In this document: piece after piece, positions 7,068 to 59,566 of the stretch | Position numbering within the stretch: the stretch's first letter is position 1 | Layout of the letters: each line of letters begins with the position of its first letter | NCBI RefSeq assembly: GCF_003711515.1 | Contig: NW_021167092.1 | Location: 425,073 to 489,072 of the forward strand | DNA: 64,000 nucleotides | DNA from: Sodiomyces alkalinus F11 | Taxonomy: Eukaryota; Ascomycota; Sordariomycetes; Glomerellales; Plectosphaerellaceae | Reading direction: 5' to 3' | Notes under the pieces: generated by a model | What the model was told of the DNA's origin: nothing | The model's input: only the letters and a program-made list of their open reading frames with translations | Databases searched by the model: none | Made by a program: the position numbers and the translations under genes

Positions 7068-7077
7068 ATTTCTTTAC
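7068..7077. repeat. Target-site duplication of LINE A, right copy
   Basis: ATTTCTTTAC, partner of 4,227-4,236. Deleting LINE A and one copy joins the two copia C fragments in one reading frame. Confidence 0.75.
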
Positions 7078-7190: not shown

Positions 7191-8094
7191 CCAGATTATT
7201 AAATTCTACTCTGTGACGGCTTATTAAAAGGTATTCACGTATTAAGGCCGAAAATATAGTTTATTCGAACGAAGGAAGAAAAGAAGGAAAGGAAAAGCTT
7301 GCGCGGTGTGTAGGCGGCTAAGTATAGGTTAGATCATATAGGCCTTGCTAGGAGGTCCGTGCTTCTTAGTCCCGGCTATTACCGGGGACTATTTTACGGG
7401 CTATAGCCCGTAATATACTCCCCCCGGGGGGGCGGCGAGGTCGCGGTCGTGTTATAGTCGCGCGGTTATAACCTTGTATTACCCTGGCCTCGCTGCGTGT
7501 AATCTAAAAATAGCCTCCTTTATTTACTTTTATTAAAGGCGCTTAAAGAGAGGCATTCTGTAGTAGCCAATGTCCTTTTAGGACTAAAATAGCATAAAGG
7601 AGCTCTTATATAGCGGTGTCCTCGCGAGGTCTTCGCCGGTATACGTGCTCGGTATAAGCGATATACCGACTCTATATATAACCGGGAGTTGTTCCTTCCA
7701 CCCTAATAGCGTAGGAAGGGTAGTAAAATAAACCTCCTACTATTTCTTATTTTTACTATTTTCTTCCTTTTCTATAGCTTTTATTTTGTCTATTGCTTTT
7801 TAATTAGTTTTTATATCGTCAATAGCCCCGAGATACCTCGCCGGTCCCGTAGTAGTATAACTAATATTGCCGAGTAATAGCTTATTCTTTAAGGCGCCTA
7901 TATCCTCGTCGCCGTGAGTTAGCACGCCCCTCGCTTATAGTTTAGTGCCGTAGCTAACTTATTAGTAGATATCTAACTTTAAGTCCCCTAGTAAGCGCCC
8001 TTATAAGGGTAGTAGTGATAACGATATAGGTTTAGCCTATATTACTATATACTATAGGGTCGGCCAGAACTAATAGGGAGTAGACTCTAACCCC
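7191..8094. other. Non-coding stretch with palindromes, probably gypsy 3 3' LTR region
   Basis: I see no convincing reading frame. The left part is GC-rich with palindromes (7,394-7,413 and a C6G6 run at about 7,420-7,432); the middle is T-rich (7,730-7,800). At 8,091-8,100 a CCCCCCCTCC tract lies where the minus-strand polypurine tract of gypsy 3 should be, immediately right of its 3' LTR. No second LTR copy exists to define the LTR, so its limits are unknown. Confidence 0.35.
7394..7413. repeat. Perfect 20-bp palindrome
   Basis: TTACGGGCTATAGCCCGTAA is identical to its reverse complement. It is followed closely by CCCCCCGGGGGG. It could form a cruciform or hairpin; its role is unknown. Confidence 0.9.
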
Positions 8095-9081
8095 CCCTCC
8101 TAAGAAGCGCCGAGCTCCTAAAAACCCGCCCAGCCCTTACCGCCTCGCTCTCTACGCGTAGTACGCTACCCGGTAGTATAAACAGGAATATACTATTGAG
8201 TATTATTACTAGTTAGGCCCTAGTGCCGCTTATACCGACGCTAACTATTACGAGTACTTCTACTATACTTATAAATACTCTAAGGTAAGTATACCGGTTA
8301 TATATAAAGTAACCGCGACTAATAAGCGATATAACTCCTTTTCACCGCCTATAACGCCGCTAACGCCTTATAGATACCGCTTATACTATAAATAAAGACT
8401 CTAATAATAAGGATATAAGTTTATATCTACCCTTCGCTTAATAGCCTTAATACTAATTCTTTCCTATAGAATCGCGGTTAGTCCTAGAATACTTATAGCC
8501 GTTTTTAGGTCGCTCCTAGCCTAGCTAAGTTAAGTAAAAACGTCGCTAGTCCTTTATAGTCCCCCACTTTTACCGTCGCCGCCGCTCCTATCCCCGCTCT
8601 TACTCCAATCATTACTCCCGTTTCCGTTACCGCCCCGCCTACTATTATCGCCCCGCTATCCGCCGCTACCTAGCCCTTTACTACTAAGTTTCAGGTAAGT
8701 ATAGTATAGGCTCTTAACGATATCGTTACCTTTGTACGTAGTATAGATAAAACGCTTAAGGACGTGTTATAAGGGCTATCGGACTATAATACTACCCTCT
8801 TCCTTATATAGGCAGAGGTTTATAGTATCTCTAATAGCGCTAAGCGCGTATACCGGTATTTCGCCGAGTTATACCTTATTCCGGCTTATAGTACACCGGA
8901 GGTAGCCCCTAAGGCTATACATGCTTCGGCTCCTCCCTAGGAGGTTATTACTCCTTTTATTATTAATAGCGAGGAGGGCGTAGCTACCTCGGCGGCTTAC
9001 TTTAAGCCGATAAAGGAGTTATAGGTAAATACCGCTACGGGCAGTATAGCCTTATAAGAGGAGGAGTTAGAGGAGGGGAGG
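8095..9081 (+). pseudogene. Antisense accessory gene of gypsy 3, Cys-rich and spliced
   Basis: Lies between the gypsy 3 chromodomain and its 3' end, on the strand opposite to gypsy 3 pol. Exon 1 (about 8,095-8,284) encodes a Pro/Lys-rich start, a C-x2-C (now Tyr) at 8,153-8,164, then C-x2-C-x4-C-x-C at 8,246-8,278 (all four Cys now TAT/TAC). A putative intron 8,285-8,373 (GTAAGT, CTAAC, TATAG) changes frame by exactly the amount needed to enter the next open frame. Exon 2 encodes a Pro/Ala/Thr-rich linker (about 8,560-8,690), a helical stretch (about 8,700-8,870) and an acidic end (EEELEEG near 9,055-9,085). Remaining stops are TAA/TAG. Function unknown. Confidence 0.6.
8285..8373 (+). other. 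Putative fungal intron in the gypsy 3 antisense gene
   Basis: AAG then GTAAGT at 8,285, a CTAAC branch site at 8,360-8,364 and TATAG ending at 8,373; 89 nt. The upstream frame carries the Cys motif and the downstream frame carries the Pro/Thr linker. They differ by one position, and removal of the intron joins them in phase 0. Confidence 0.55.
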
Positions 9082-9289
9082 TTATAGAGTAATAGGTCTT
9101 TTCGGCTACTTAGGTTATTTTCATCGTTTTTAGTGTTTGAGGTCTTTACTATTTTTTACTTAGTTTCTTATTACTTATATATTAAATAGGGTAAGGGTAT
9201 AACCCTAACATAATCTCGCTTTCGATTCTTATCCTACTCGCTATTATATTAGCCTTCTTTCACGCTTATATCTTTTTCGTATATTATTA

Positions 9290-9499
9290 TAAAAGCATAT
9301 TATTCGACTATACCGGGCTATACTTTTTCTCGAATTCGTCGAGCGCTTATATCTCCCGTATACTCTTAAGCGGTTCTTATATTAGTTCTATATAGCCCTC
9401 CTATTATACTAATACCTCGCGGACCTTGCCGCGACCTCGCTTTCGGGTATAGGTATAAAGGACTTCCTCTACTACCTATTCCTTCTCTTTATTTAGCCC
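9290..9499 (-). pseudogene. Gypsy 3 C-terminal chromodomain
   Basis: The minus strand reads VVEEVLYTYTRKRGRGKVRE followed by VLVQQEGYIELIQEPL, matching the chromodomain pattern (W-E-V-E-x-I-L-D ... L-V-K-W-x-G-Y ... T-W-E-P-L). Trp codons have become stops or Gln-like. Chromodomains bind methylated histone H3 tails and steer integration to heterochromatin, which fits the nested context. Confidence 0.75.
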
Positions 9500-10660
9500 T
9501 TCCCGGATAAATAGCGGCTAAGAGTCTATTATCGCTTACCCTAGTAGGGGGTTATAATCGGCTCGCCGTAAAAGATCTACGTAAAAGCGGTTATAGATCT
9601 ATAAGGGGACATTTAGCTTTACGATATATAAGTTAATAACCTTCGTGATTTTATACTTATAGTAAAGCTAGGTAAGTTTCTTTAATAGCCGTAGCGAGGA
9701 GTAATTAGCGATATCCTACTATATAAGGTCGTCCTTTTCGAACCTCTTAGTAGGATAATATTAATAGTTCGCCGACTCCTTTTAGTATAGTTATATAATA
9801 GCTATCACGGCTTAGGCGAACTAAGTAGCTTCCTAAAAGCAATCTAGTAGGTCCTAGATAGAAGTCTCGCGCTTATCGGTCGGCGTAGTCTTATTAACTT
9901 AAAGAGAATCCACGTAGTACCCGTGTTATAGGATGAATGGGCTTATTTAGATCGTTAAGTTTACCCGGTTATTTAAGGCTAGTTACGCTACCGGTAATGG
10001 TATATTCTAATCGTCTCAGGCATAATAGATATACGCCTATAAGTAGGCTTAAACCGCCTAGTTAATACGTTTAGGACCTTTATCCGTCTAAGGGTAATAT
10101 ATGGTGCTAAGTTATTATTTAATACCCGCGAGTTTATAGAAGTATTACTAAAAGCGGCTAGTCTAGTTTAACCCTTTATCGCTAATAATAGACTTTGGTA
10201 TTCAGTCGAACCTATAATAGTATAATAACAACCGTTTAGTACAGGCTTTAGTATCTATAATATCTATCGCTTTAAGTGTTACCGATTTTAAGAGTCAGTT
10301 AATAATTATCTATAAGTATTTATACTTTCCTTCGCGGGTAGGTAATAGGTCCGTTATAAAGTCTATTATGATATCGTAGAAGGTTCGCTCTAGTACAAGG
10401 AGTAAGTGTAGTAATCCTCTTTTTATACCCCTTCATATATAGCTAGCTCGGTATATATCGTAATTCCGTATAAACCTTCAAACATTATAATTTATACCGG
10501 GCTAAAAGAATTAACGGGCGATTAGGGTAATAATATTATCTTTATCTAAATGTTTACTAATTACTAAGTCGTGGATCGCTTCTATAAGGCGGCCTTATAA
10601 CGGGTAACTTACTGCGTCTTCGCTATCTCCTAGTATTTATATCCGGTCTTAAAATATTAG
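9500..10660 (-). pseudogene. Gypsy 3 integrase
   Basis: The minus strand shows the block RFDQIPKSIISDKGQTR (family D-R-G-x-x-F/T-S) at about 10,170-10,220, carrying the second catalytic aspartate. The segment lies between RNase H and the chromodomain as expected. The zinc-binding H-H-C-C part is too eroded to place. Confidence 0.65.
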
Positions 10661-18686: not shown

Positions 18687-18872
18687 ACCACGATTCCTGC
18701 GGTCTAGTTATCTTGCTTTGCTTTTTTATCTATTAGAATTTATAAGGCAGATTATTACGGAGGATTTCCTTTATTTAGTACGCTCTATTTTACTATACCT
18801 AGCTTCTAATAGCCTTTAGCCCTTAGGGTAATAGGCGCCGCGCCATAGCTTTAGCGCTGTATACGCGTAATA
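18687..18872 (+). other. LINE B 3' UTR
   Basis: Conserved with the reverse complement of 4,250-4,440 of LINE A, showing that the UTR belongs to the element. No polyadenylation signal is certain. Confidence 0.7.
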
Positions 18873-18881
18873 AATCAAAAA
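18873..18881. repeat. Probable target-site duplication of LINE B, right copy
   Basis: AATCAAAAA, followed here by one extra A, partner of 13,953-13,961. Confidence 0.5.
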
Positions 18882-27480: not shown

Positions 27481-29085
27481 ACCCTGGCCTTTGAGCTTAG
27501 TGTAAACCGGCGTAACGCGGCCAAAAAGAACGATACGGGTATTATTAGATAGCTAACTCCCCGCTCTACCTAGTAGCACTAGGTATAACTAGGCGGGCGT
27601 GGCGCGCTACCCTGCGGGAGCCTTAGAAAGACTCCTATAATACTACCTATACCTTATAACCACCCTTCCGAAAATCTCTCTCCTCGGACCTATAATACCT
27701 AAACGGAAGGCCTAAGCGCCTCCCCCGGTAGCTAATAGGGCCCTAACCTAGACTAAAGCCTAGTATAGAGGCACTATTACTACCCTGATAGATATATTAG
27801 GAGTAGCCCCGAAAGAAATAACGCTAAATCCTTTACCGTATATACCCGAAAGTAACTATAATACACTATAGAAGATCTTGTTTAATCCCTATAGCAGAAA
27901 GCCTCCGCTATCGATATCCTAATCCAGGCCGTTAAATAGGGTATATCTAAAGCTAGGGACACACTAGGAGCTAATACCGCCCTAGTAAGCTAGCTCGGTA
28001 ATGAATTTATCGGCCAAATCAAGATAAGGGTGCTGGCTTTAGTAGCCGGTATAGACCCGCCTAGAGCGCCGGGAGGCAAAGACTCCTAACCCTGACCGAA
28101 GAGTATAGTACCGCCCGGTAAGATTAATCCTAGCCTACCGCCCGCTAAAGTACCCCCCGCAAAGCCTACAGGACCCGCCCCGTAGCCCGCGAGCTAGTCG
28201 ACCCGACCCCCTAAGTAATAGGATTAGACTATTATAGAGAAGAAGGGGAAGAAAAAGAATAACGTAACGCCCCCTAGTTTATAAGAGAAGCGCCCCCTAA
28301 AGGACCCCTAGAAAAGGAAGGATAATAGGGTCTTCCTCCGATTCCTACCTAAGACGATACTATAGCTAGAATAACAAGAGGCTATAGTAATTATCCGTCG
28401 CGCGGTTACGGAGACTAGTAAGGTAAACGATTAAGATATTATTATAGTAGAACGTACCCGTACCGGGGCGACGCTATAACGACGTAATTCCTTGGCGAAG
28501 AAAAGGATCCTCAATGCTAAGGAGCATATTCAGACCGCTATTAAAGCTTTTTACGTGCAGGGAGTAAAGATCTAGTATACTTTTATTATATATAAAGTTA
28601 TCGATTTTATCGACGATATTAAGGTTATAGAGGCCCTTATCAAGGAAAAGGCCCTAAAGCGAATAGGGATAAAACTAATCCGTATAATAAAACACGGTAA
28701 ACCGATTAATAACCGTGGCTTATCTACCTAATACGTCTCCTTCTAGATAGAATTAAAACGACGGTTCCGTCTATTTAAGACTTCCCTAATAGTAAAATTA
28801 TAAGTCGCTAAATAGGCCGTGGTCTAATATAAGAAGTTCTAGGGATACTACACCTAATATACCTATAATTGCGGGACTAAGTATAGTATATATAGTACCG
28901 GCACGATAAAAGACTATAGCTATTATAACCGCGTAGATACGGCTTTAGTGTGGTGTCGGTAGCCGGTTATATAACCCCCTTTTTAAGGATGCGGGATCCA
29001 CCTCCTATATATATATTAAGGACAGGCTCTAGATATCCCTATCGAGGGACGATTATCTAATTATCATCCTCTTTTACAATTACTT
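27480..29085 (+). pseudogene. Gag/ORF1-like relic with zinc-finger-like end
   Basis: Not firmly identified. Layout: a Pro/Lys-rich middle (about 28,080-28,330), a helical basic part (28,390-28,850) and a Cys/His-rich end at about 28,865-28,960. The end reads YNCGTKYSIYSTGTIKDYSY, compatible with C-G-x2-H ... C-x2-C after RIP. This resembles ORF1 of fungal LINEs or a retroelement gag. It is followed at once by the repeat copy 29,087-29,280. No ORF2 follows. Confidence 0.45.
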
Positions 29086-29086
29086 A

Positions 29087-29280
29087 TTCCACGTTTAAGG
29101 TATCTTTCTAGTTTAACTTACGTTACCCTAATCTGAATAATAACTACCGGTCTACTTCTTTGCTAAAGGTTATAGCGGTATTAGTTATATTTTAGTTATA
29201 TATCGTGGTTTCGCTAGACTAACCTCTTTATCTAATCTTTATCTTAACGATCTAGTGCTACTACGTCTTTATTAGGTTAT
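29087..29280. repeat. Dispersed repeat, copy 2 (pairs with 1-194)
   Basis: Same segment as 1-194, differing mostly by transitions; homology ends at the same base in both copies. Confidence 0.75.
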
Positions 29281-29282
29281 AA

Positions 29283-29890
29283 TATAGTGCTTGGAGGCGG
29301 ATTTATTCGGTATGCTTAAAGTATTCTAACCCTGATTAGAGTAATACAGGCGCTTAAGGGTGGTTCCGGCCCTCCTAAACGGACTGTTAGTTAACGACCC
29401 CTAAAGGATATAAAGATAATAACCGAGGAAGGATTTAACGCTTTAAGACCGAGCGGAGATCTGCTCTAATAGATTTAGAAAAAAAAAACGACTATATTGG
29501 TAAGAGAGGAAGTACTTTTAGCACTTTTAATTATAAGACCCGCCGCCGCGGAGGTAGTAACTATATGAATAAAAGAAACCGATTAGATCGTAATAAAGTT
29601 AGATTCCGGATATAGAATAGACTCGATAAGGGGCTTATAACCCTTACCACTAATTAAAATAGACTCTTGTATAATAGCGAAGAAAAGATAAGACCGCCGA
29701 GTATAGCTTACCCGGATTAGGGTAACGAACCCCTAATAACCTAAAGAAAATACTAATACTAAGCGTGGAAGCGAAATAATAATACCATATATAAGGACCC
29801 GATAGTCTAATAGATAAGATGTTTATAGACCCCGTAAGTAAGTTATAATACTTCTTTATAAGACTTAGCGTATAATATTACTAGTATTAA
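29283..29890 (+). other. Unassigned coding-like stretch upstream of gypsy 2 gag
   Basis: One frame is open apart from TAA/TAG/TGA, with EEVLLALLIIRPAAAEVV at about 29,498-29,552 and a basic, Gln/Asn-rich continuation. It could be the 5' LTR/leader of gypsy 2 with a chance frame, or a fragment of another element. I cannot decide. A+T-rich with a run of ten A at about 29,471. Confidence 0.3.
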
Positions 29891-30523: not shown

Positions 30524-31060
30524 TGTTACGGCTAGCCGCCTAATATAGACTAAACCTATGGGTATAACTGGTATACGTCCCCCGGGACGGCCCTAGACAA
30601 GGAATAACATAGGATGACTCAGGGAGTCACGTATTAAATCACGTGTCACCAGGTATAAAGGTACTTAGTGTACTATCTAGACGGCCCAGGGTTAATCACT
30701 CTGCCAGAGTGATTAGTGAGTGATCGGTCACGACTAGATCACTTAGATATAGTGACTACGTAAGGAATAGTCATTATAGGTAAGAAGGCGCTATCACTAT
30801 ATATACTAGAGTATCCTAGGTCTTACTTCTATTAGAGAATAAGATATCGATTAATCTAAGTCTTCACCTAGACTACTATTCTACGCTTACACCTACCTTA
30901 TAAAGAAGACGCTTAGTCTTTACGACGTAACTACGACTAAACCACTATGAATAATAGTTACTACTCTTTAGTTAATATCCTCTTCTTATTTAAACTAAAA
31001 CCTCGACGTTAGTCCCCTATCGCCCGCTATAACTATAAAGGACTAGAAGCCGTCGTAATA
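30524..31060 (+). repeat. Gypsy 1 5' LTR, 537 bp
   Basis: Begins TGTTACG and ends CGTAATA (originally CGTAACA), forming a 7-bp terminal inverted repeat with 3' LTR 37,491-38,027. The two LTRs have equal length with no gap seen. The differences I checked are C/T or G/A transitions. LTRs carry promoter, polyadenylation and R/U5 functions. Confidence 0.95.
30693..30715. promoter_or_regulatory. Hairpin in gypsy 1 LTR
   Basis: A 10-bp perfect stem (TAATCACTCT / AGAGTGATTA) with loop GCC. The 3' LTR copy is at 37,660-37,682, with one stem arm weakened by RIP. Position in the LTR suggests a role in the R region RNA (packaging or transcript end), but that is inference. Confidence 0.6.
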
Positions 31061-31100
31061 TTTTAATCGATCCTATTCGGTAAGCTAACCTTAATAGCTA

Positions 31101-33420
31101 ATAAGCAGTACGCCCGAAGTAGAAGCTACTTCGCCTAAGGAAGAAGAACTCATTTTATCTGAAGAAGAATTATCGTCTAAAGAATCCAGTTCCTCCGACG
31201 GAGTGGAAGAACCAGGATAACCTTAATAAGACGATGAAGTAGCTAGCAATCACTCTTCCAATATATCGAATAATAATAACCGTACCGCGAGCGCTACGAA
31301 CGCTATAACGCCTACCACCGCCGCTAAAGGGAATAACGACCTTTAGTAGATTCGTAATATAATTACCTAGCTTTAGGGGGAGAATATAACCCTAAGAGCT
31401 TAGTTAAATTATCCTAGGATTAGGGCTAAGTATAAGTACCCTACACCCCCTAAGTATAACGGAACTCGAGGATAGCTTTAGAGCTTTATTACCTAGCTTA
31501 GAGGCTATCTCCTATTCTACTAGGATAGTATCCGTATAGAAGAAACCAAAGTACTCTATACCGCGGTACTCCTTACGGGGGATACGCACGAATAGTTCGA
31601 ATCTATCTCTAAAGACTACCTAGAGAATATAGGAATAGAAATCCTAAGGAAGCCCGGGACCACGGAAATCTTCGAGGACTTTAACGTATTTATCGAAAAA
31701 CTTAACGCTATTTTCGGCTAGCCCGATAAGGAATAAGTCACGGCCGAATAACTAAGCTAGCTATATTAGACTAAGTTAGCTACGGACTATACTATAAGAT
31801 TCTAGTAAATCTCGTTAAAGCTTAGCTACCCGGATAAACCCCTTATAGATTAGTACTATTAAGGACTTAAGGAAGAAGTAAAGGACGAATTATACCGAGT
31901 AGACCGACCTAAGATATTTAGCGAATATACCGTAATAGTAATTTATATTAATAACCGGAATTATAAATAACGCTATTAGAAAAAATAGTAAATAAGCGTT
32001 CTATTTTATACGGCTAATTCGAAGAAGAAATAACTATACCTATACTAGTTCGGAAACACCTTATATAGGTATTATAGTAGACTTATAAAGCTTGATAATA
32101 TTAACCGATAAAGCGATAAGCAGGGTAAAAGAGATATAAAGAAAGTTAAGTATTATAACTATAATAAGCCGGGTTACTACGCACACGACTATTATAAGCC
32201 TAAGAAAGAATAATCGTAATAATAGGCTAATACGATTAGAAGAGAAAAACCCTAGAAGGAAATTAACGCTATTAGATACCTGGAAATTTATAGAGATAAA
32301 ACACCACACGTTAACCTTTATTAGATAACCTACTACGATAACTATTATCTAGTATACTAATTAGAGAAGGACGGAGCTAGATATTACCCTAAAAGACCCT
32401 AGAAGATGCTCGTTATAGTATCTAGTAATAAGTACGATAATAACTATAGCCTTAAAATCCCCGACTAGGATAAGGATAGACTAGCTTTATAAACTATCGT
32501 AGAAATCCTTTAAAAATACGGATAAACGAAAGAAGAAGCTAAAAGATAGAAGTAGATCTTAGAGATCTAGATGGAATAGGAAGTCTACACGAATACTAGT
32601 AGTAGAGGTTTTAGCACCCTCTAGAAAAAAAGGACTTACTCGCGAAAAGAAACACTAACTTAAGAAAGGAGATTATGCACGTTATATATAACAGGAAATC
32701 GCTAAACTCGAAGAATAAGATTAGGAAACGGAGTTAGACAGAGTTCCGGATAATAACACGAACTTCTAGTACTAACTTATAGAAATAGCCGACCTGATTA
32801 AGGAAGAAACTATCTAGCTACGGATACTCGACTAGCTCGCGGAAGAACCCTTTAGATAAACCTACTAAGTCCGTTTTACTAAACTTAGCTTTAATAACAC
32901 TTACCGTAAAGTATTTACGAATACTAGCGAAGAATAATAATAAACTATATATTAGTGACCTTACTATACTTAGGAAAACCGAGATACTCTTACCGGCTTA
33001 ATAATAAGCCTATAAGAGTCGGATGATTAACTACCCGAGTACTAAACGCGTGAGAAAGGATAGATAGAACGTAAATAGGCTAAACACGAGATTCGCCTCT
33101 AACCACCTAGGTATAATTACTACGAATACCGGTTAGGCGAGTATAATACTACTAGCTATATAGTACGCGTTACTAAGAAAATCCGATAACTAGAATAAGA
33201 CTAAGAAGCTTAGGAATCACGCTTCTAGGCCCTTAATACGCGTCTATAATAGAAAGAATAGCTTTTAATCTAGTACGGGTTCCTAGATAAAGAGATATCC
33301 CTCTAACACTAAGCTAAACACGTAAAAAACTAGGAGTATACTATTATAAGGAGTATATAAGAGGTACTCGATAGATATACTCTATAACACGTAGTAGTAT
33401 AGGGCACTATTATATTAGAA
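31101..33420 (+). pseudogene. Gypsy 1 gag part of the gag-pol frame
   Basis: Start chosen at ATA 31,101-31,103 (from ATG): the frame is open from here and gives SSTPEVEATSPKEEE. An acidic Ser-rich N-terminus is followed by the capsid-like part (about 31,430-31,960, with YPTPPKYNGTRG and LYRVDRPKIFSEY blocks). A C-x2-C-x4-H-x4-C nucleocapsid knuckle is at 32,151-32,192 (residues 351-364), in which all three Cys and the His are Tyr. A long Gln/Glu-rich region runs to the protease. The frame matches that of pol, so this is a single gag-pol polyprotein without a programmed frameshift. Confidence 0.85.
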
Positions 33421-35450
33421 TACGACTCGATAAATCTAAGATAAACGCACTATTAGATATAGACGTAGCAGGAAACTTTATCTTACTAGTAGCCGTAAGT
33501 AAGTTCTTTATCCCCTAGGTTAGGAAACACCTAGAAGACGAGTACGAAATCACTCCGTATACGGGAAAGAATTAGTCCTAAGAAGAAGTTATTATTAGCT
33601 AGGAGACTATATACCTTTAGGTTAAAATCCAGAATAAGACTAGAATAATAAAGTTCGATATATACGATATAGGTTATAAGGACGTTATCCTTAATAAACT
33701 ATAGTTTAATAAGTAGAATCCTGATATAGACTAGAAGCTTAGCTAGCTCCGGTGGAGATTAGAGAGTAAGTAGGAGACTATAAAGGAAACCTTACCCGAT
33801 CCTGATATCCGTCGAAAATAGCAGAAAGACTTACCGACGAAGGAGCCTTAGGGAGACTTAGATAGCCGCTAAAAGTCAGGGACTAAGGCGAAGGAAGTAT
33901 AAAAGACTTTAAGATAGTAGTAACGGCACGATAACCGACACGTAATAAATATTATTAAAGGAATCTATTAGATTATCTAAGTAGAGAGAGGACTTATGAA
34001 AGGCGATTATAATAGACTCGCTAAGGTATTATTAGAATACCGTAAATACGGAAAGCTATTTACCGAAAATCTAAAGACTAGATTACCGAAATATCGATAT
34101 TACGATTACGAGATACCCCTTAAGGAAACGATACACCTAAAATTCTTTCTAATTTACGGGCTAGATTAAAAGGAATTAAGTGCCTTAGAAGAATATCTCG
34201 AAGAAATACTAGTAAAAGGCTATATTAGAGTATTATAATTACTAGTAGGATACCTGATTCTATTTATACTAAAGAAAAACGGTAAACTACGACTATATAT
34301 CGACTATCGATAACTTAACGATATAACTATTAAGAACCGTTACCCACTACTTTTTATCTCGGAGATATAAGATTAGTTAGTTAGAGTATAATAGTTTATA
34401 GCACTTAACTTAAAAGGAGCCTATAACTTAATTAGGATTAAGGAAGGAGAAGAATAGAAAATAGTATTCCGAATAAAGCGAGGATATTTCGAGTACCTTA
34501 TTATACCTTTTAGATTAACTAATACGCCGGTATCGTTCTAAACGCTTATTAACGATATCCTAAGAAAGTATCTAGACCACTTCGTTATAGTATACCTAGA
34601 CGATATCCTTATCTTCTCTAAAATACTCGAAGAATACCGATAATATGTTTATATAATCCTATAACTCCTATAAGACGCCGACCTATTAGTTAAACCAGAA
34701 AAAGTATAATTCTATACGTAAGAAGTTAACTTTTTAGGGTACACGATACGACCTAACGAAATCTATATAGATAAGGCGAAAATCTAATATATCTTTAAGT
34801 GGCTATAGCCGTAAAACGTTTATGATATTTAGTCTCTCCTCGGACTTATTAACTATTATCGACGATTTATTAAGGACTATAGTAAGATTACTATCCCCTT
34901 AACTAAAGTAACTAAAAAAGGACTAGACTTCGAATAGAATGAAAGAATAGAAGAAGTATTCTAAACCCTTAAAGGAAGGGTTACTAGCGAACCTATCTTA
35001 GTAATACTAAACCCCGAAAAAGAATACGAACTCGAAATAGACGTATCCGACTAGGCTCTAGGAGTATAACTCGGATAACGCGACGTAGAAGGGAGACTAT
35101 ATCCTATAGCCTTTATATCCAAAAGACTTAGTAAACTAGAACTTAACTATTAGATCCACGATAAAGAGCTAATAGCTATTATCGAAGCCTTTAAAGAATA
35201 AAGACCGTATCTATCAGGAATAAAATACCCGGTATAGGTCTACACGGATTATAAGAACCTCGTATAGTTTACCACTACTAAGGTCCTTAATAAATAATAG
35301 ATCCGATAAGTAGAATTCCTATCCGAATTTAACTTCTATATTTAATATATAAAAGGAAGCAAAAATAGTCGCGTAAACGTACTTAGCCGACTAGGGATAC
35401 CTAATAAATCACCTAAACTATAAGCTATACTCTAATAGAAAGGAGAAGCT
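33421..35450 (+). pseudogene. Gypsy 1 protease, reverse transcriptase and RNase H
   Basis: Protease-like NALLDIDVAGNFI at about 33,447-33,485 (family A-L-I-D-S-G-A-x-x-x-F-I, Ser/Gly changed by RIP). RT: KKNGKLRLYIDYRQLND near 34,272-34,323, PFRLTNTPVSFQ near 34,507-34,542, Y-L-D-D at 34,593-34,604 (intact), INYYRRFIKDYS near 34,848-34,885. RNase H: EIDVSDQALGVQL near 35,034-35,072, then ELNYQIHDKELIAI near 35,140-35,182. Same frame as gag. It would make the cDNA in an intact element. Confidence 0.9.
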
Positions 35451-36560
35451 CTTACCCTTAAAAATAAAGAAATAAATAGTATTAATAAGGTAATTAACAC
35501 TATGTTTAAAGAAGTATACGCCTTACTAATATATAGATATTAAGGAGTTTATAAAACCTACCGCCGATTACGATAATAATACGGCTATACAGGAACCAAA
35601 GAATAAATTAGGGACTTCGTTTATAACTACGATATTTACTTGAAAGTACAAAGCAGCCGATATAAACCTTACGGACTACTAAAGCTACTACTAGTAGTAG
35701 ACGGACTATAGAAATTAATTATAATAGACTTCGTAATAGGATTCCTAGTATCTAAAGACCTAGTAATAGGAACCGCCTACGATAGCGTATTCGTGATCGT
35801 CGACCGATTTATATAATACACTCTTTATATTCTATATATTAAAAACACTATAGCAGAAGAACTAGTAAGTATCTTTATTAACCGCCTAATCCGGGATTAT
35901 AGCGCGCCGAAAAATATTATCACGGATAGAGATAAACTCTTTACTAGTAACTTCTAGAAAGTAGTTATAAGCTAGCTAGGAACGAAATATAAGTATTCGA
36001 TAGCGTTTTACCCTATAACGGACGGATAAACCGAAATTATAAACTAAGTCCTAGAATAGTACCTATAATACTATATAGGGTACGAATAAAATAATTAGGT
36101 ATAATACCTACTACTTATATAGTTTTTATATAATAGCTTATTAAACGAGTTAATAAAGAAAACACCGTTTAAAGCAAACTACGGATACACCCCGATAGTA
36201 TTTAGAAAACCTTTAGAAGGACTAAACGCACTAAGAGCGATAAAAATAGTTAAAAGTATAAAAGAACTACACGAAGAACTACGAACCGACGTAGAGATAG
36301 TTAGAATACGAATAAGCAGATACGTAAATTAATTAAGGATTAAGGGACTAACCCTTCTAATAGGGGACCGCGTCTACCTTATTCGTAAAAATATTAAAAC
36401 ATAACGACTAAGCGATAAATTAGATTTTTAAAAATTAGGACTATTTAAAATCCTAGAGAAAAAATCAGATACGAATTTTATCCTATTACTACCTCCGATA
36501 ATAAGGATATATAATAATTTCTATATTTTACTACTTAAACTAGCACCGGAAAACGTAAAA
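35451..36560 (+). pseudogene. Gypsy 1 integrase
   Basis: Blocks in order: IIIDFVIGFLVS near 35,719-35,755 (first catalytic Asp), VDRFIQYTLY near 35,799, IITDRDKLFTSNF at about 35,917-35,956 (second Asp), FYPITDGQTEIINQVLEQYL at 36,007-36,066 (catalytic Glu region, P-Q-T-D-G-Q-T-E-x-x-N). It is followed by a GDRVYLIRKNIK-type GPY/F-like tail. The frame is continuous with RT. Confidence 0.9.
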
Positions 36561-36569
36561 ATAATATAA

Positions 36570-36740
36570 GATATAATCGTGGTAGATACTAGCGATATAT
36601 ACGAAGCAGAACGAATCCTCGATTATCGAGAGATACTAGACGGTACTAAATATTTTATAAAATGGAAAAACTACGACCACGGCGATAATACCTAGGAACC
36701 TAAAGAAAACCTAATCTATTATAAGTAACTCCTAAAGTAA
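36570..36740 (+). pseudogene. Gypsy 1 chromodomain
   Basis: From 36,600 the frame reads YEAERILDYREILDGTKYFI, then KWKNYDHGDNTQEPKENL; this is the chromodomain fold signature (Y-E-V-E-x-I-L-D ... Y-L-V-K-W-x-G-Y ... T-W-E-P-x-x-N-L), with Trp before EP now a stop. It places the element among chromoviruses that target heterochromatin. Confidence 0.9.
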
Positions 36741-36829
36741 TACCGATCAAACACTATTAGGACCTAGAACCAGACACCGCGGTCTACGTAGGATTAGTAT
36801 CCGAAAAGTCACTTATATCCTGTATTAGT

Positions 36830-37386
36830 ACTTAATTCTAATTAATTATATCTATAATACTAATAGCCTATATAGTAGCCACCACCTCTAACTCGGCCCG
36901 ACAGGCCTTTTCTTCCTCTTTCTCCACCTTCTTAAGCTCCTTTATATCGGTAAGGTCCTTACGAACTATTTTCACCCCTTTCTTCCGCAGTAAATAACGA
37001 GTTCGACGAAGGCGGGATAGGCGGGCGAGCGCCTTATAGAGTATCACCTCGGTCCGCTCCTCCTCCTATTAAAGGCGCTTTAACTCCTCGTTTATACGAC
37101 CCGCTAGGAAGACGAAAGAATAAGCGATAGGAGCTAAACGAGAGGGCGAGGGCAGGAGCGTACTAGAAGATATTAGGGTCCTAGCACTATTATAAGAACA
37201 ACCTAAGCGGAAGCACGCGTAGTAACGAGTAATATCGTCCAGAATAAAGCACGGCACGTTCTTAGAAGCATAACGGGTGTAAGGGATAACCTCGTAGCCC
37301 TGATGAGCGATAAGGGCAGAAACGGTTAATCGGTTTTCGGCGGAATAAGATTTAGGACGGGATAACTTCTAAACACGGTCGGGCAT
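36830..37386 (-). pseudogene. Antisense accessory gene of gypsy 1, Cys-rich with coiled coil
   Basis: Starts at an intact ATG (37,386-37,384) and runs leftward for about 175-185 codons, ending tail to tail with gag-pol. It encodes a basic start (MPDRV), P-C-T-R-C at 37,270-37,284 (both Cys now Tyr), another Cys, then C-x2-C-x4-C-x-C at 37,192-37,224 (C-A-C, G-C partly intact). A Ser/Pro-rich hinge (about 37,130-37,180) precedes a charged coiled coil (EEERTEVILYKALARLSRLR near 37,005-37,068 and KELKKVEKEEEK near 36,908-36,945). Only about four in-frame stops. The Cys layout recalls fungal Cys-rich domains such as DUF3716 or zinc clusters, but I cannot run the profile. The same position is used in gypsy 3 and gypsy 4. 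Confidence 0.65.
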
Positions 37387-37475
37387 AATAGTCAGTAATA
37401 AAAGAAGAAGAAAAAACCTAAGGAACACTAACTAGGGGAAGCGACCTACTTATACGACCGCTAGGATAGCGCTTA

Positions 37476-37490
37476 GAAGGAGGGGGGTAA
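37476..37490 (+). promoter_or_regulatory. Gypsy 1 polypurine tract
   Basis: GAAGGAGGGGGGTAA directly before the 3' LTR; primes plus-strand DNA synthesis. Confidence 0.8.
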
Positions 37491-38027
37491 TATTACGGCT
37501 AGCCGCCTAATATAGACTAAACCCACGGGTATAACTAGTATATATCCCCCGGGACGGCCCTAGACAAGGAATAACACAGGATAACTTAGGGAGTCACGTA
37601 TTAAATCACGTGTTACTAGGTATAAAGGTACTTAGTATACTATCTAGACGGCCTAGGGTTAATCACTCTGCCAGAGTAATCAGTAAATAATCGGTCACGA
37701 CCAGATCACTTAGATATAATAACTACGTAAGGAATAGTTATTATAGGTAAGAAGGCGCTATCACTATATATACTAGAGCATCCTAGGTCTTGCTTCTATT
37801 AGAGAATAAGATATCGATTAATCTAAGTCTTTACCTAGACTACTATTCTACGGTTAAACCTACCTTATAAAGAAGACGCCTAGTCTTTACGACGTAACTA
37901 CGACTAGACCACTACGAACGATAGTTACTGCTTTTTAGTTAATATCCTCTTCTTATTTAAACTAAAACCTCGACGCTAGTCCCCTATCATCCGCTATAAC
38001 TATGGAGGACCGGAAGCCGTCGTAATA
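37491..38027 (+). repeat. Gypsy 1 3' LTR, 537 bp
   Basis: Partner of 30,524-31,060 at a constant offset of 6,967. Starts TATTACG (RIP of TGTTACG). Confidence 0.95.
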
Positions 38028-39400: not shown

Positions 39401-41209
39401 TCCCTAAGTATTTAGTAATAGATTAGACCGGTACCTGGGTAGTCTGCCTAAAGAGCGAGCTACGAGTTAACGAGTACTAGCTATACTAACGCCTTATACT
39501 ATATTAGCTAGCCACTAAGCTTTATAACCGATTTAAGGAGCTCGTAGACCTTCATATTAAGACCTTCTAGCCCGCTACCCTCCCCTATAAGACTAAAGAG
39601 ACTAATAGGCTTATAATTAAGTATATAGTTAAGTAGGTATAGAAGTAGTCGGCCGGTTAGAGTAGTTGGGCTAACTAAGCCACTTAAGCCTTAAGAGCCA
39701 CTAAGGTCACGGGATCTATTAATTTTATAACTACTAGAGTATATACGGCGTCTATATCTTACTATACTTTAACTGACCCCTAGGACCCTTTTCGTACTAC
39801 GAGAAGCGGGAGAATTAGTAAACCCACGCTAAAAGTAGCTGGTTCCCCTGATCAGCCTATTTAATAAACCCTATCGACTCTGGAAAGTTCTTAGAGGGTT
39901 ATAGAAATAGTTAACGACACCGATATAGAAGACGGACTAGCCCCTGATTCGACGGCCCCTATATCTAGACCTATTATTACCTTAACTATTACCCGGCCTG
40001 CCTCACGGGCCTTGGCTTAGAAGGATACCCATAATTTATTTAACTAGGAGGCTATTATAGAGAAGGTCCGCGAGAAGAGCCTAAAACACCTTTTAGAGAT
40101 AGAGGTTAAGGTTCTTATAGTTTACCTCCTCTTTACTAATAGGGCTATACTCGCGGATTATAAAGAGCTACTAAGATTAATCGGTAGCTAGGTAAAGCCT
40201 CGTAAAGTTATCCGCTTAACCCCTAGAAAGGCCTTTTTTATTAACCTCTTACCCCTTAGACCCGAACGCTCTATATAGTTTACGAATACTATGACCACGG
40301 CCCCTACGCCTAATAGTACCCTCTCTATCACGCCCGCCTTAATAATCAATAAACTAAAGCCCCCCACGGTTTATACGAAGTATATAACTCTACGGGTTAG
40401 CCTAACTAGGCGAATAGCTAAGTCCTGCCCCGCGGAGAATCGTTTTTACGTAGTTATTAATATAGGAGCTATCTTCAATACTATCCGGCTTAACCTTATA
40501 AAAAAGCTAGGATTATAGAGCTGTATCGGAAAAAGTAATATCACGATTAAAGGGATTAACGACATAGATAGGGTAAACTATATAAGCTATCCAGAAAAGC
40601 ACCTCTAGGTCGGGGACTAGTATAGGAAGGCCTATTTTATAGTGATTAAGGGGGTAGGACCTAGAATACTTCTTAGCCTGCTATTCTTACTTAATAATTA
40701 CGCCTCTTTTACCTATAAGAATAGATAGATCGATATAGACTTCGCTTACGGGGATACCCGTATTATTATCCTAGTCGCTAGTAGGGAATAGGTCGATAAC
40801 CGCCCTTATAGATAGAGCTAACCTAAGTTTAAAGAAGAAGAAAAGCGGTAAGAAAAGGAGGATATATTAGATCTAAGTATCGGATAGTAGGGGGAGGACA
40901 GCGTCCCTTATAGTTAGTCCGGGGCCGCTACCTTAATATCGAGTAATAATAGGATTAGCGGTTCGCCCGACTAAGGGGCGAAAAAGGCGGAAAGGAGGGG
41001 GATAATAGAGGATGAGAAGGAGAAGAAGAGCGATAACGATATTTTCTTTTATTTAGATAATAAGAACGCTACTACTTTAGTCGCCTTCCGGTTTACGGAG
41101 GAGGTAAAGCCCTTAACGCAGAGAATTTATATAGTCTTAAGGGCGGTACCACGAAATTAGGGCCGAGGATATAAGAGGTATATCGCGGAGGCTCCCTATA
41201 TAATAACTA
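39401..41209 (+). repeat. Duplicated block, copy 1 (gypsy 2 gag end and protease)
   Basis: Identical in every stretch I compared to 41,220-43,028 (offset 1,819). It encodes the end of gag and a protease block VVINIGAIFNTIRLNLIKKL at about 40,450-40,510, in which the catalytic D of D-x-G is Asn (40,459-40,461). An acidic Lys/Glu-rich end lies at 40,975-41,075. Confidence 0.9.
40270..40620 (+). pseudogene. Gypsy 2 aspartic protease
   Basis: The stop-free piece 40,291-40,518 is the protease start. FYVVINIGAIFNTIRLNL matches the retroviral-type aspartic protease V-x-I-D-S/I-G-A-x-x-N-x-I. It would cleave gag-pol. Asp to Asn inactivates it. The duplicate is at 42,110-42,337. Confidence 0.75.
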
Positions 41210-41219: not shown

Positions 41220-43028
41220 TCCCTAAGTATTTAGTAATAGATTAGACCGGTACCTGGGTAGTCTGCCTAAAGAGCGAGCTACGAGTTAACGAGTACTAGC
41301 TATACTAACGCCTTATACTATATTAGCTAGCCACTAAGCTTTATAACCGATTTAAGGAGCTCGTAGACCTTCATATTAAGACCTTCTAGCCCGCTACCCT
41401 CCCCTATAAGACTAAAGAGACTAATAGGCTTATAATTAAGTATATAGTTAAGTAGGTATAGAAGTAGTCGGCCGGTTAGAGTAGTTGGGCTAACTAAGCC
41501 ACTTAAGCCTTAAGAGCCACTAAGGTCACGGGATCTATTAATTTTATAACTACTAGAGTATATACGGCGTCTATATCTTACTATACTTTAACTGACCCCT
41601 AGGACCCTTTTCGTACTACGAGAAGCGGGAGAATTAGTAAACCCACGCTAAAAGTAGCTGGTTCCCCTGATCAGCCTATTTAATAAACCCTATCGACTCT
41701 GGAAAGTTCTTAGAGGGTTATAGAAATAGTTAACGACACCGATATAGAAGACGGACTAGCCCCTGATTCGACGGCCCCTATATCTAGACCTATTATTACC
41801 TTAACTATTACCCGGCCTGCCTCACGGGCCTTGGCTTAGAAGGATACCCATAATTTATTTAACTAGGAGGCTATTATAGAGAAGGTCCGCGAGAAGAGCC
41901 TAAAACACCTTTTAGAGATAGAGGTTAAGGTTCTTATAGTTTACCTCCTCTTTACTAATAGGGCTATACTCGCGGATTATAAAGAGCTACTAAGATTAAT
42001 CGGTAGCTAGGTAAAGCCTCGTAAAGTTATCCGCTTAACCCCTAGAAAGGCCTTTTTTATTAACCTCTTACCCCTTAGACCCGAACGCTCTATATAGTTT
42101 ACGAATACTATGACCACGGCCCCTACGCCTAATAGTACCCTCTCTATCACGCCCGCCTTAATAATCAATAAACTAAAGCCCCCCACGGTTTATACGAAGT
42201 ATATAACTCTACGGGTTAGCCTAACTAGGCGAATAGCTAAGTCCTGCCCCGCGGAGAATCGTTTTTACGTAGTTATTAATATAGGAGCTATCTTCAATAC
42301 TATCCGGCTTAACCTTATAAAAAAGCTAGGATTATAGAGCTGTATCGGAAAAAGTAATATCACGATTAAAGGGATTAACGACATAGATAGGGTAAACTAT
42401 ATAAGCTATCCAGAAAAGCACCTCTAGGTCGGGGACTAGTATAGGAAGGCCTATTTTATAGTGATTAAGGGGGTAGGACCTAGAATACTTCTTAGCCTGC
42501 TATTCTTACTTAATAATTACGCCTCTTTTACCTATAAGAATAGATAGATCGATATAGACTTCGCTTACGGGGATACCCGTATTATTATCCTAGTCGCTAG
42601 TAGGGAATAGGTCGATAACCGCCCTTATAGATAGAGCTAACCTAAGTTTAAAGAAGAAGAAAAGCGGTAAGAAAAGGAGGATATATTAGATCTAAGTATC
42701 GGATAGTAGGGGGAGGACAGCGTCCCTTATAGTTAGTCCGGGGCCGCTACCTTAATATCGAGTAATAATAGGATTAGCGGTTCGCCCGACTAAGGGGCGA
42801 AAAAGGCGGAAAGGAGGGGGATAATAGAGGATGAGAAGGAGAAGAAGAGCGATAACGATATTTTCTTTTATTTAGATAATAAGAACGCTACTACTTTAGT
42901 CGCCTTCCGGTTTACGGAGGAGGTAAAGCCCTTAACGCAGAGAATTTATATAGTCTTAAGGGCGGTACCACGAAATTAGGGCCGAGGATATAAGAGGTAT
43001 ATCGCGGAGGCTCCCTATATAATAACTA
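41220..43028 (+). repeat. Duplicated block, copy 2
   Basis: Same as 39,401-41,209. The pol frame continues from this copy into RT at 43,029 onward. Most likely the same genomic bases counted twice. Confidence 0.9.
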
Positions 43029-52280: not shown

Positions 52281-52337
52281 TTTAATAATTAATAGGGGGT
52301 AGGGGGGGTTAAGATAACGTGCCCGGTATAATCGGGG

Positions 52338-52342
52338 TCTAG
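52338..52342. repeat. Target-site duplication of gypsy 4, left copy
   Basis: TCTAG, identical to 59,562-59,566. Confidence 0.85.
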
Positions 52343-52556
52343 TGTTACGGGTTGACTCTGATATAGAGGATCCGGCTATACTCCGGATCTTCCTGACTGT
52401 GCGCTTAGTTAACGGACCTATATCGCTAAGTTATCGCTACCTTATAGCTAGCCTAGCGCTATAGACTTCTCTCCTTTTCCTTCTTCCTTGCTTAGTTCTA
52501 GATAATCTATTATTACGACCTCACTTAGTGCCACGACCTATAACTAGTCGTTTATA
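52343..52556 (+). repeat. Gypsy 4 5' LTR, 214 bp
   Basis: Starts TGTTACGG and ends TTTATA (from TTTACA). Equal length to 59,348-59,561, offset 7,005. It includes the inverted pair GGATCCGG/CCGGATC near 52,368-52,391. The differences I checked are mostly transitions. Confidence 0.95.
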
Positions 52557-52899
52557 TATCTAGAACTCAGCGATACCCACGCGCTACGCTAGTAATAGAT
52601 TAGGATCCTAACGCTACCGCCTAATAACCTATTAGAATTAAATAGGTTATAGAGTAGACGAACTAATAGTTCGAAAAAAACGACTAAGCCCTAAACGTAA
52701 GGCTAGGCCCTGTCTATAAATAATATACCGATATTAACTTAACGCTCGCTCTAATATAAGAATACTACTCGGACATACGCTAGTTTATAGACTAATAACG
52801 CGCGAGAGAAGAAGCCGATAAGCGATAACGTTAGTTAGTTAAATAGCTTATAGCCCGGCTCCTAGGATCGCCTGCCCTATAGAACCTAACGCCGCTTAA

Positions 52900-57264: not shown

Positions 57265-57465
57265 CTTAACCACCGCTTATTCGAGAAGTAACTAATAGTA
57301 AAGAATAGGAAGTTAAGGAAATCCTCTACGCGAGGACGAAGAGGCGAGGTAGGGGATTAAGACGTGAAGTACTAGTGCGATAGGTAGGATACTATAAGCC
57401 TATATAGGAACCTTTAGAACTATTAGCGTAAACGCGGGTACTCGACGAGTTTAAAGGGAAATTCG
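57265..57465 (+). pseudogene. Gypsy 4 chromodomain
   Basis: VKEILYARTKRRGRGLRREV then LVRQVGYYKPIQEPLELL (about 57,313-57,427): the W-E-V-E-x-I-L-D-A-R ... L-V-R-W-V-G-Y ... T-W-E-P-L pattern. Nearly the same domain as in gypsy 3. Confidence 0.85.
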
Positions 57466-57629
57466 GCTTAGTAGTAATAAATAATAGCCTATTAGATACC
57501 TTTGCGCTATTATAATATAGGAACTAATATATAAGCGATCGTATCGCGATAATTAAAAGGGAGTAAAGTCGGATTTAGTTTAGGCCGGATAAGCCCCGCG
57601 TTTTAGCTATACTTAATATAAGCCTAGAT

Positions 57630-59010
57630 TAATATCCTCGGCCTTAAAATCGCTATCCTCAGGATTATCGACTTCCGTAAAAGTCTTACCCTTATCGCCC
57701 CGCTATAGGTCAGAGTCCGTCTTTTTAACTTTATTAGTATCTTTATTATCGCCGTTATCGGGGATCACGACCGCGCTAGCGATAGTTATACCCGTAAGCG
57801 TAAAAGCCCGTTTACGCTCCGCGTATTATTAGAATTCGGAGATTATAACGTGAGCGCGACCGAGTATAAGTATCTCCCCAAGTAGCCGAGTATACTCCTT
57901 TAGCTTTATAAGACTAAGGCGTCTAAAGTCTTTATCCGATAATATTAACCCCGATAAAGGAGTAAGAGTAATAGGATAAGCGTTCTTTTCCGCTACGATA
58001 TTAGGAGGGACTAGGCCTAAAACTACTACTTTACCTATAACCTTATAAGGAGGAGATAAGGCTAGCTATTCCGCCCTAATAATAACCTCCTCTAAAAGCG
58101 ATACGTTTAGTCCTAATATTATCTTTTCTACGACTTCCGAGGGAGGAGAGAAGACTAGTATAACCACCTCGCTAGCGACCTTTAGTACCAGAGGAAGTAA
58201 GGCTAGTCTAACTACCTTATTAATAACTTTAGGAAGAGGTAATAAGGCTAACTATAGTATTACCGCTTCTTAGACCTCCTAGGGAGGAGAAGGGGCTAGC
58301 GCGATTACTGTGCCGGGAGCCTCCGCGGGATATATAGCTATAAGTGATATCGCCGTTATCGCTTCCCTAGCTATAAGGGTATCCTAGAACGCCGCGTAGG
58401 CGTTAAGATACGGTTCTTACTCCTAAAAGAAGAGTTAGCGATACTATCGCGACCTCTTAAGGGGGAGGAAGTCTTATAGGGGTGTTCTTATTATCGTCGC
58501 TAATAAGGGTAACCGTCTCGAATAACCTCTACGCGTAGTCTTTAAGGTACGTTAGGAGAGGAGTATACCGGTATATCTTCGTAGAGTATATATAGTATTT
58601 CTTCCCCCGATTAGTCTAGCTACGATAAAGGCGCTTATACTTCCTATTAGCGATATCGCGCGTGTAAGGGAGGCACGGCTTAGTATAAACACTACTAGGA
58701 GGGTATTTAGGAGGCCGATTACCCGCCGATTTCTTTTCTTTAGGCGGCGGCGAGGGCGATAACGTAAACTATTATACGGTTAGTATCGCCTTAAGACGTA
58801 AGAGCGTTATACCTATATTATTATTAGCGGTATACTTATTACGATTATTACCCTTATTATCGCCGGGGGCTAGCGCCGTCTATAAAAACGATATAAGTTA
58901 GTAAAGGATTCCTAATAAAAAGATCGCGAGCGAGAGACGGCTCACCTTAAACGGGGAACTCTTAAACTAGCCGAGTATTACTATTATTATCTAAGGATAG
59001 GCGATATTAA
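57630..59010 (-). pseudogene. Antisense accessory gene of gypsy 4, Cys-rich and spliced
   Basis: Exon 1 (about 59,008-58,946) begins near a group of ATA codons (from ATG) and ends FKSSPFK. The putative intron is 58,945-58,880. Exon 2 reads TALAPGDNKG onward, an Asn-rich then Pro/Lys-rich segment, P-C-L-P-C at 58,664-58,678, a further Cys, and C-x2-C-x4-C-x-C at 58,565-58,597 (all Tyr now). Later parts, in shifted frames, hold helical and acidic segments (KKTDSDL region near 57,690-57,720). Same position and orientation as in gypsy 1 and 3. Function unknown. Confidence 0.6.
58880..58945 (-). other. Putative fungal intron in the gypsy 4 antisense gene
   Basis: On the minus strand: AAG then GTGAGC at 58,945, CTAAC at 58,901-58,897, TATAG ending at 58,880; 66 nt, with 17 nt from branch A to AG. 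All three signals are canonical for ascomycetes and survived RIP. Phase 0. Confidence 0.65.
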
Positions 59011-59326: not shown

Positions 59327-59344
59327 GGAGGGAGAGGGGGGGGA
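59327..59344 (+). promoter_or_regulatory. Gypsy 4 polypurine tract
   Basis: GGAGGGAGAGGGGGGGGA, four bases before the 3' LTR. Confidence 0.85.
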
Positions 59345-59347
59345 TAG

Positions 59348-59561
59348 TGTTACAGGTTAACACCGATATAGAGGATCCGGCTATACTCCGGATCTTCCTG
59401 ACTACGCGCTTAATTAGCGGACCTATATCGCTAAGTCATCGCTACCTTATAGCTAGCCTAGCGCTGTAGACTTTTCTCCCTTTCCTTTTTCCTTCCTTAG
59501 TTCTAGATAATCTATTATTACGACCTTACTTAGTGCCACGACCTATAACTAGTCGTTTATA
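59348..59561 (+). repeat. Gypsy 4 3' LTR, 214 bp
   Basis: Partner of 52,343-52,556. Confidence 0.95.
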
Positions 59562-59566
59562 TCTAG
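59562..59566. repeat. Target-site duplication of gypsy 4, right copy
   Basis: TCTAG, identical to 52,338-52,342; LINE D resumes after it. Confidence 0.85.

Follow-up and report, generated by a model that had tools for sequence, protein, structure and literature searches.

A candidate antisense gene for a cysteine-cluster and long-helix protein in chromoviruses of the fungus Sodiomyces alkalinus

A fungal precedent for a gene antisense to a gypsy element is brtn of the Boty-like retrotransposons of Botrytis cinerea (Zhao et al. 2011, Virology 417:248; title as given in PMC8365987), which the excerpted text of PMC7264820 places between pol and the 3′ LTR. Boty is described as a fungal gypsy element with a chromodomain (excerpt of PMC4227169), and a Monilinia transcript resembling BRTN is mentioned in the excerpt of PMC5987419. 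With brtn, antisense genes in fungal gypsy elements as such are already published, and the idea in the preliminary description of the present locus, which knew of no such ORF in fungi, was preceded by that work, cited in both PMC8365987 and PMC7264820. The plant aORF-3R genes (Grande gene23, RIRE2, Retand, PvRetro13) are reported in the excerpt of PMC7264820 in a like slot and orientation, in plant elements; the same excerpt reports nuclear localisation of the Grande product, leaves a cysteine cluster unmentioned, and gives the function of LTR retrotransposon antisense genes as not known. The word antisense is absent from the excerpted text of a survey of fungal LTR elements (PMC3248453). No description of the cysteine-cluster family presented here appeared among the literature matches listed. 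HBZ of HTLV-1 is likewise antisense and spliced, starts from the 3′ LTR side, and consists of a DNA-binding type region and a coiled coil.

The window analysed here is a stretch of 64,000 nucleotides of S. alkalinus F11, whose elements were searched for in the genome assembly (43.4 Mb, 22 contigs). The longest ORF from a start codon in the window is at most 123 amino acids, as heavily RIPed repeats would lead one to expect. One of its elements, gypsy 1, is a chromovirus, with a Ty3/gypsy pol and a C-terminal chromodomain: the last 2.1 kb of pol (+ strand) match Pfam RNaseH, H2C2, rve, Tf2-type SH3 and Chromo, some of them below cut-off. Gypsy 1 has an ORF antisense to gag-pol in the gap between pol and the 3′ LTR, which is the definition of an antisense aORF; as far as the published excerpts describe brtn and the plant genes, the likeness to brtn extends to antisense orientation, slot and a chromodomain gypsy element, and that to the plant genes to slot and orientation. 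The features of gypsy 1 are as follows.

30526-38027: gypsy 1, whole element
30526..31060, + strand: 5′ LTR, 535 bp, 92.5% identical to the 3′ LTR by self-comparison
36573..36752, + strand: chromodomain at the end of pol (Pfam Chromo, E 2e-9)
36829..37103, − strand: putative antisense exon 2, a long, coiled-coil-like helix (3′ end putative; aligned core 36871-37103)
37104..37163, − strand: putative intron of 60 nt, GTACGC...CTAG, with the CTRAY branch site absent in the gypsy 1 copy
37164..37386, − strand: putative antisense exon 1, basic N-terminus and cysteine cluster
37281-37192, − strand: cysteine cluster of exon 1, Cys/Tyr spacing 2-6-8-2-6
37493..38027, + strand: 3′ LTR, 535 bp, by self-comparison; the antisense start codon is 107 bp off

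Of the six frames in this stretch, the antisense one (37386-36830), located between chromodomain and 3′ LTR, has the fewest stops: 6 in 185 codons, where the other five have 10-17. Across 38 rows of gypsy 1 type (some elements counted twice, as loci overlap), six columns spaced 2-6-8-2-6 hold Cys in 8, 0, 35, 3, 30 and 3 rows and otherwise Tyr. The column with no Cys in this census is Cys in the copies L005, L007 and L049, and in L005 the raw DNA still encodes the full six Cys, at spacing 2-6-9-2-6. The pattern 2-6-x-2-6, with Tyr allowed, occurs only twice across the window, in gypsy 1 and at 28829-28927. Other repeats in the window include two 1809-bp copies (39401-41209 and 41220-43028), 100% identical and 10 bp apart in repeat-rich surroundings, which reflect either tandem duplication in the very recent past or an assembly error, and a 198-bp direct repeat (1-198 and 29087-29284; 90% identical, 29 kb apart), perhaps the LTRs of an element stuffed with nested insertions.

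The frame recurs throughout the genome. As a query it gave at least 144 matches, merging into at least 85 places, and the corresponding exon 2 queries from two further elements of the window, gypsy 3 and gypsy 4, gave at least 85 and at least 136; the antisense sequences of all three types exist as many copies, not one transduced copy. A Chromo match lies within 1.5 kb of 39 gypsy 1 type places; 38 of these converge with it and one does not (gap 29-413 bp, median 98), and a further 46 places have no partner among the best 150 of 338 Chromo candidates. Gene and chromodomain also converge in 48 of 48 fetched gypsy 1 type loci (49 examined, one without a gene match) and in 11 of 11 and 11 of 11 loci of the gypsy 3 and gypsy 4 types, all chosen via the gene and some overlapping. 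Two loci, L042 (C1:3907000-3911000) and L044 (C1:3974500-3978500), carry a gypsy 3 type antisense sequence about 1 kb beyond an opposite-strand gypsy 1 type gene, a layout of two elements tail to tail or of a duplicated block.

Counted from the chromodomain, 145 Chromo matches were taken as transposon-derived (the best 150 of 338 candidates minus 5 set aside as host-like, with open frames): a convergent gypsy 1 type gene accompanies 44 of them, one has a non-convergent gene only, and 100 have none. The search behind this tally was not sensitive; it used 119 gypsy 1 type places from two queries, disregarding second fragments, together with 83 of 85 matches of the gypsy 3 type and 78 of 136 of the gypsy 4 type. 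Since 100 of 145 are without it, the gypsy 1 type gene is common, not universal; the figure of 100 overstates absence, because L005 and L007 are among these places and yet carry the gene. Some chromoviruses in this genome may be without it, as at L103 (C9:510100-511400), one of the 100, where no cysteine cluster was seen by eye in the 1.3 kb behind the chromodomain at C9:510011.

Coding constraint was tested by counting transversions by codon position, because RIP makes transitions. For the helix half, DNA-only alignments of seven pairs gave transversions at positions 1/2/3 of 9/10/23, 4/6/26, 13/3/34, 18/15/25, 10/4/26, 9/6/18 and 13/10/26, with p < 0.05 in six of the seven (13/3/34, p 3e-7, being the best, followed by 4/6/26, p 4e-6, and 10/4/26, p 6e-5). 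The helix half is under codon-position constraint in the antisense frame. The cysteine exon alone gave a signal in one of five pairs (p 0.008; the others 0.06-0.75). In protein-guided alignments, which are biased to the frame, the third position was highest in 10 of 10 subfamily pairs for the helix and 13 of 15 for the cysteine exon.

On the antisense strand of subfamilies A1-A6, gaps of 43-67 nt, varying in length and frame, lie between the cysteine exon and the helix exon. Among 43 distinct junctions, 40 carry GTNNGN on the 5′ side and 14 its strict form GTRNGT, 17 contain CTRAY, and all 43 have YAG on the 3′ side; the relaxed signals occur together in 15 junctions and the strict ones in 11, and the relaxed test was passed by 95 of 8600 random windows from the same loci. 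Subfamily A1, to which gypsy 1 belongs, is mostly without CTRAY. The L002 type has no intron and runs as one frame through both parts (11 matches spanning at least residues 3-165). These signals make antisense splicing of the gypsy 1 gene highly probable. The proposal of a retained antisense accessory gene was upheld for gypsy 1 by subfamilies diverging to about 30% identity, codon-position constraint, a common intron-like site and relatives in other fungi. The frame is almost certainly a real antisense protein gene of chromoviruses, and as an accessory gene of gypsy 1 type elements it looks old and retained.

Gypsy 3 and gypsy 4 present a different picture. Their features in the window are as follows.

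8093-9084, + strand: gypsy 3 slot sequence
8093..8284, + strand: gypsy 3 putative antisense exon 1, Tyr/Cys-rich
8285..8334, + strand: gypsy 3 putative intron start (GTAAGT), with a damaged 3′ end in this copy
8560..9084, + strand: gypsy 3 repeated downstream frame, putative
9311..9514, − strand: gypsy 3 chromodomain-like pol end, by similarity to gypsy 4 (48-49%)
52334..52557, + strand: gypsy 4 5′ LTR, 224 bp (LTR pair 92.4% identical)
57273..57473, + strand: gypsy 4 chromodomain-like pol end, by similarity to gypsy 3 (48-49%)
58729-57610, − strand: gypsy 4 slot sequence
57610..58491, − strand: gypsy 4 repeated downstream frame, putative
58502..58729, − strand: gypsy 4 putative antisense exon 1, Tyr/Cys-rich
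59339..59562, + strand: gypsy 4 3′ LTR, 224 bp (LTR pair 92.4% identical)

In the last 2.1 kb of pol of these two elements Pfam yields only RNaseH and H2C2, with no Chromo match in either, and their chromo-like ends were recognised via their mutual similarity of 48-49%. Self-comparison of the window found no LTR pair for gypsy 3, whose region is flanked by inverted 2.8-kb copies (4254-7069 and 16051-18874, 84%). The preliminary description had put a gene in the same slot, opposite to gag-pol, in all three elements; this stands for gypsy 1 and for gypsy 4, whose putative sequence lies in the aORF slot, and for gypsy 3 relative to its chromo-like end only. That the elements differ widely agrees with the LTR lengths of gypsy 1 and gypsy 4 (535 vs 224 bp) and disagrees with the pol of gypsy 3 and gypsy 4, which is 65-68% identical in DNA, so that these two are not independent.

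The three genes had also been credited with an exact common motif, C-x2-C then C-x2-C-x4-C-x-C, which results from reading every Tyr as Cys. A column census of copies ruled it out as a common signature: its third Cys is Arg in 25, Tyr in 4, His in 3, a stop in 3, Cys in 2 and Pro in 1 of the 38 gypsy 1 type rows, and, in the 31 rows of gypsy 4 type, Tyr in 30 and His in the remaining one. With Tyr counted as Cys, the motif turns up 14 times in the window's six frames. The chance of at least one occurrence on the gene strand of the slot is 0.06 for gypsy 1, 0.10 for gypsy 3 and 0.14 for gypsy 4, values whose product of about 0.001 disregards the post hoc choice of motif. The claimed start and the claimed motif of gypsy 3 and gypsy 4 lie in different frames, which introns or damage fit equally.

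A single conserved module in all three elements is not supported: gypsy 1 exon 1 resembles neither of the others, and gypsy 3 bears no sign of constraint. Homology of gypsy 1 exon 1 with gypsy 3 or gypsy 4 was rejected, because 7 and 15 column shuffles in 100, respectively, scored as well, and the gypsy 3 type gave a constraint signal in none of 11 comparisons with the window copy, its pooled pairs running the opposite way (879/526/747); gypsy 4 copies are too alike for the codon-position test. The exon 1 profiles of gypsy 3 and gypsy 4 match each other (probability 66.7, E 7e-6, with none of 100 column shuffles reaching that score), which is only moderate evidence because both are Tyr- and Pro-rich. 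Of 11 gypsy 3 type copies, 10 have GT at the end of exon 1 and 8 have GTRNGT there, and gypsy 4 type copies, which lack a clear 5′ splice site, have CTAAC in 12 of 12 rows (11 distinct), followed by TAG in 11 of 12, conservation that is owed largely to shared ancestry. Judged by these profiles, the two slot sequences are probably related to each other and may form a putative module of their own, with no detectable similarity to gypsy 1. That they are instead no gene at all, and an old repeated non-coding stretch whose Tyr-rich frames mimic a cysteine motif, would agree with the slot chances of 0.10 and 0.14 and with the missing codon-position signal in gypsy 3 copies; set against the exon 1 match and the recurrent GT, CTAAC and TAG, this reading is a serious possibility that we nevertheless doubt.

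Relatives of the gypsy 1 type protein occur in other fungi. Earlier protein searches with queries other than L002 found none; the better preserved L002 copy as query retrieved 78 related database proteins out of 190 candidates (E 2.9e-57 to 2e-7). The 23 of these that carry a species name come from 11 genera (Hirsutella, Cordyceps, Colletotrichum, Pyricularia, Microdochium, Beauveria, Fusarium, Metarhizium, Chaetomium, Gaeumannomyces and Thermothelomyces), include none from Botrytis, and are annotated as hypothetical or uncharacterized. Five genera were checked and all are Sordariomycetes (Hypocreales, Magnaporthales, Glomerellales, Xylariales and Sordariales), a class to which the remaining six also belong. 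Some metagenome relatives bear labels such as seryl-tRNA synthetase, taken as a misnaming of the helix. Eighteen relative sequences were read, and in 24 that were aligned five Cys are invariant and the sixth is present at 90% or more, with spacing 2-7-9-2-7 in 18, 2-6-9-2-7 in 3, 2-6-8-2-7 in 2 and 2-6-12-2-7 in 1; the six-Cys pattern is found in 56 of the 78 and is absent in 22. The gypsy 1 type aligns with the profile of the relatives from the start of the frame on (probability 98.2, E 3.2e-14, 143 columns).

Zn2Cys6 proteins (PF00172) have the spacing C-x2-C-x6-C-x5-12-C-x2-C-x6-8-C. Gypsy 1 fits it only with Tyr counted as Cys, and L005 fits it in raw DNA; the strict spacing is found in 6 of the 24 aligned and 17 of the 78 relatives, and the 2-7-9-2-7 of most relatives is near, mostly not identical to it. 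That most relatives have seven residues between the second and third Cys, and not six, lowers the odds of a zinc cluster and of the wider reading given further below. The Pfam Zn_clus gathering cut-off was not reached by L005 (12.3 bits vs 21), Zn_clus matches in 5 of 24 relatives had a best E of 0.18, and PDB sequence searches returned no zinc-cluster chain. AlphaFold2 models, built from damaged copies, gave a helix of 104 residues (pLDDT about 70-94) and, for the cysteine exon, a worthless model (pLDDT 48). None of the three approaches, Pfam, PDB sequence comparison and AlphaFold2, yielded usable proof of a zinc fold. DUF3716, the Pfam family suggested earlier, matched neither the raw gypsy 1 type frames nor a single copy each of the gypsy 3 and gypsy 4 types, all RIP-damaged, and is not among the 25 of 59 Pfam families listed for 24 relatives.

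Dimeric fungal zinc-cluster proteins are built with a cysteine cluster ahead of a coiled coil. Gal4-type Zn2Cys6 proteins share with the gypsy 1 type this order of six Cys then coiled coil and, in gypsy 1 and L005, the spacing; the gypsy 1 type differs in falling below the Pfam cut-off and in being only about 200 amino acids long, and its relatives in the 2-7-9-2-7 spacing of 18 of 24. We consider it rather likely that the gypsy 1 protein binds zinc, and see even chances that it is a nuclear regulator of the element.

These observations can be assembled into a mechanism. Gypsy 1 would belong to a set of related chromovirus families whose third gene lies between the chromodomain and the 3′ LTR and is read antisense to gag-pol. 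The promoter of this gene would run backwards from in or beside the 3′ LTR, a placement suggested by the 107 bp between the LTR and the start codon. Splicing of the antisense transcript would join the exon for the basic N-terminus and six cysteines to the long-helix exon, and the intron, being antisense to the genomic RNA and hence not spliced from it, would stay in that RNA and survive retrotransposition. The product would probably be a small zinc-dependent nuclear dimer acting on nucleic acid or chromatin, and might tune LTR transcription or the fate of the pre-integration complex, much as HBZ of HTLV-1 does from a matching position. The likeness to HBZ comprises antisense orientation, the 3′ LTR side, presumed splicing and a coiled coil after a putative binding region; HBZ differs in having a bZIP instead of a cysteine cluster, and homology is not implied. 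Taken as a whole, an antisense spliced chromovirus gene for a small zinc-dependent dimeric nuclear regulator is an explanation that we judge evenly balanced between right and wrong.

The protein might instead be a structural or packaging helper, such as a nucleic-acid chaperone or a nuclear import factor, and no transcription regulator. The few basic residues in the cluster, the lack of a Pfam zinc-cluster match above cut-off, a spacing (mostly 2-7-9-2-7) unlike Zn2Cys6 and the long charged helix would all suit a helper, an assignment that we find unlikely, given that a basic N-terminus and cysteine cluster before a helix make up a dimeric DNA-binding layout. Annotation of the named relatives as ordinary proteins could also mean that one chromovirus lineage captured a host gene, which those proteins of other fungi would represent. 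Repetition in one slot through this genome argues against capture, as do several clusters on different contigs of one species: Hirsutella rhossiliensis has four, on four different contigs, which suggests dispersal. No relative was found when their loci were sought in viral_contigs and genome_contigs scans. We regard host capture as very improbable. That the element is silenced or tuned by double-stranded RNA, with the antisense transcript being what counts and its protein irrelevant, in keeping with the antisense RNA roles discussed for plant elements in the excerpt of PMC7264820, is hardly credible, since codon-position constraint in the helix half and conserved cysteines in 24 aligned proteins demand a protein.

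Intact relatives sit unannotated in many fungi, and one LTR-retrotransposon antisense gene now has a recognisable protein, with a cysteine cluster and a helix, an intron-like site and many fungal relatives. We tentatively extend this, at somewhat less than even chances, to a widespread fungal chromovirus antisense gene, often intron-bearing, that would encode a cysteine-cluster and coiled-coil regulator as an independent counterpart of HBZ, the unnamed hypothetical proteins of the family in many Sordariomycetes being this transposon gene. Should the relatives in other fungi also prove to be transposon genes, gene annotation ought to mask them as mobile DNA. Antisense-intron reporters are used to score retrotransposition; the antisense intron of gypsy 1 type elements would be a natural version of them and, if real, would mean that an intron can persist solely because its gene is antisense to the RNA that is reverse-transcribed. 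With intact copies in laboratory fungi, the question of function becomes testable.
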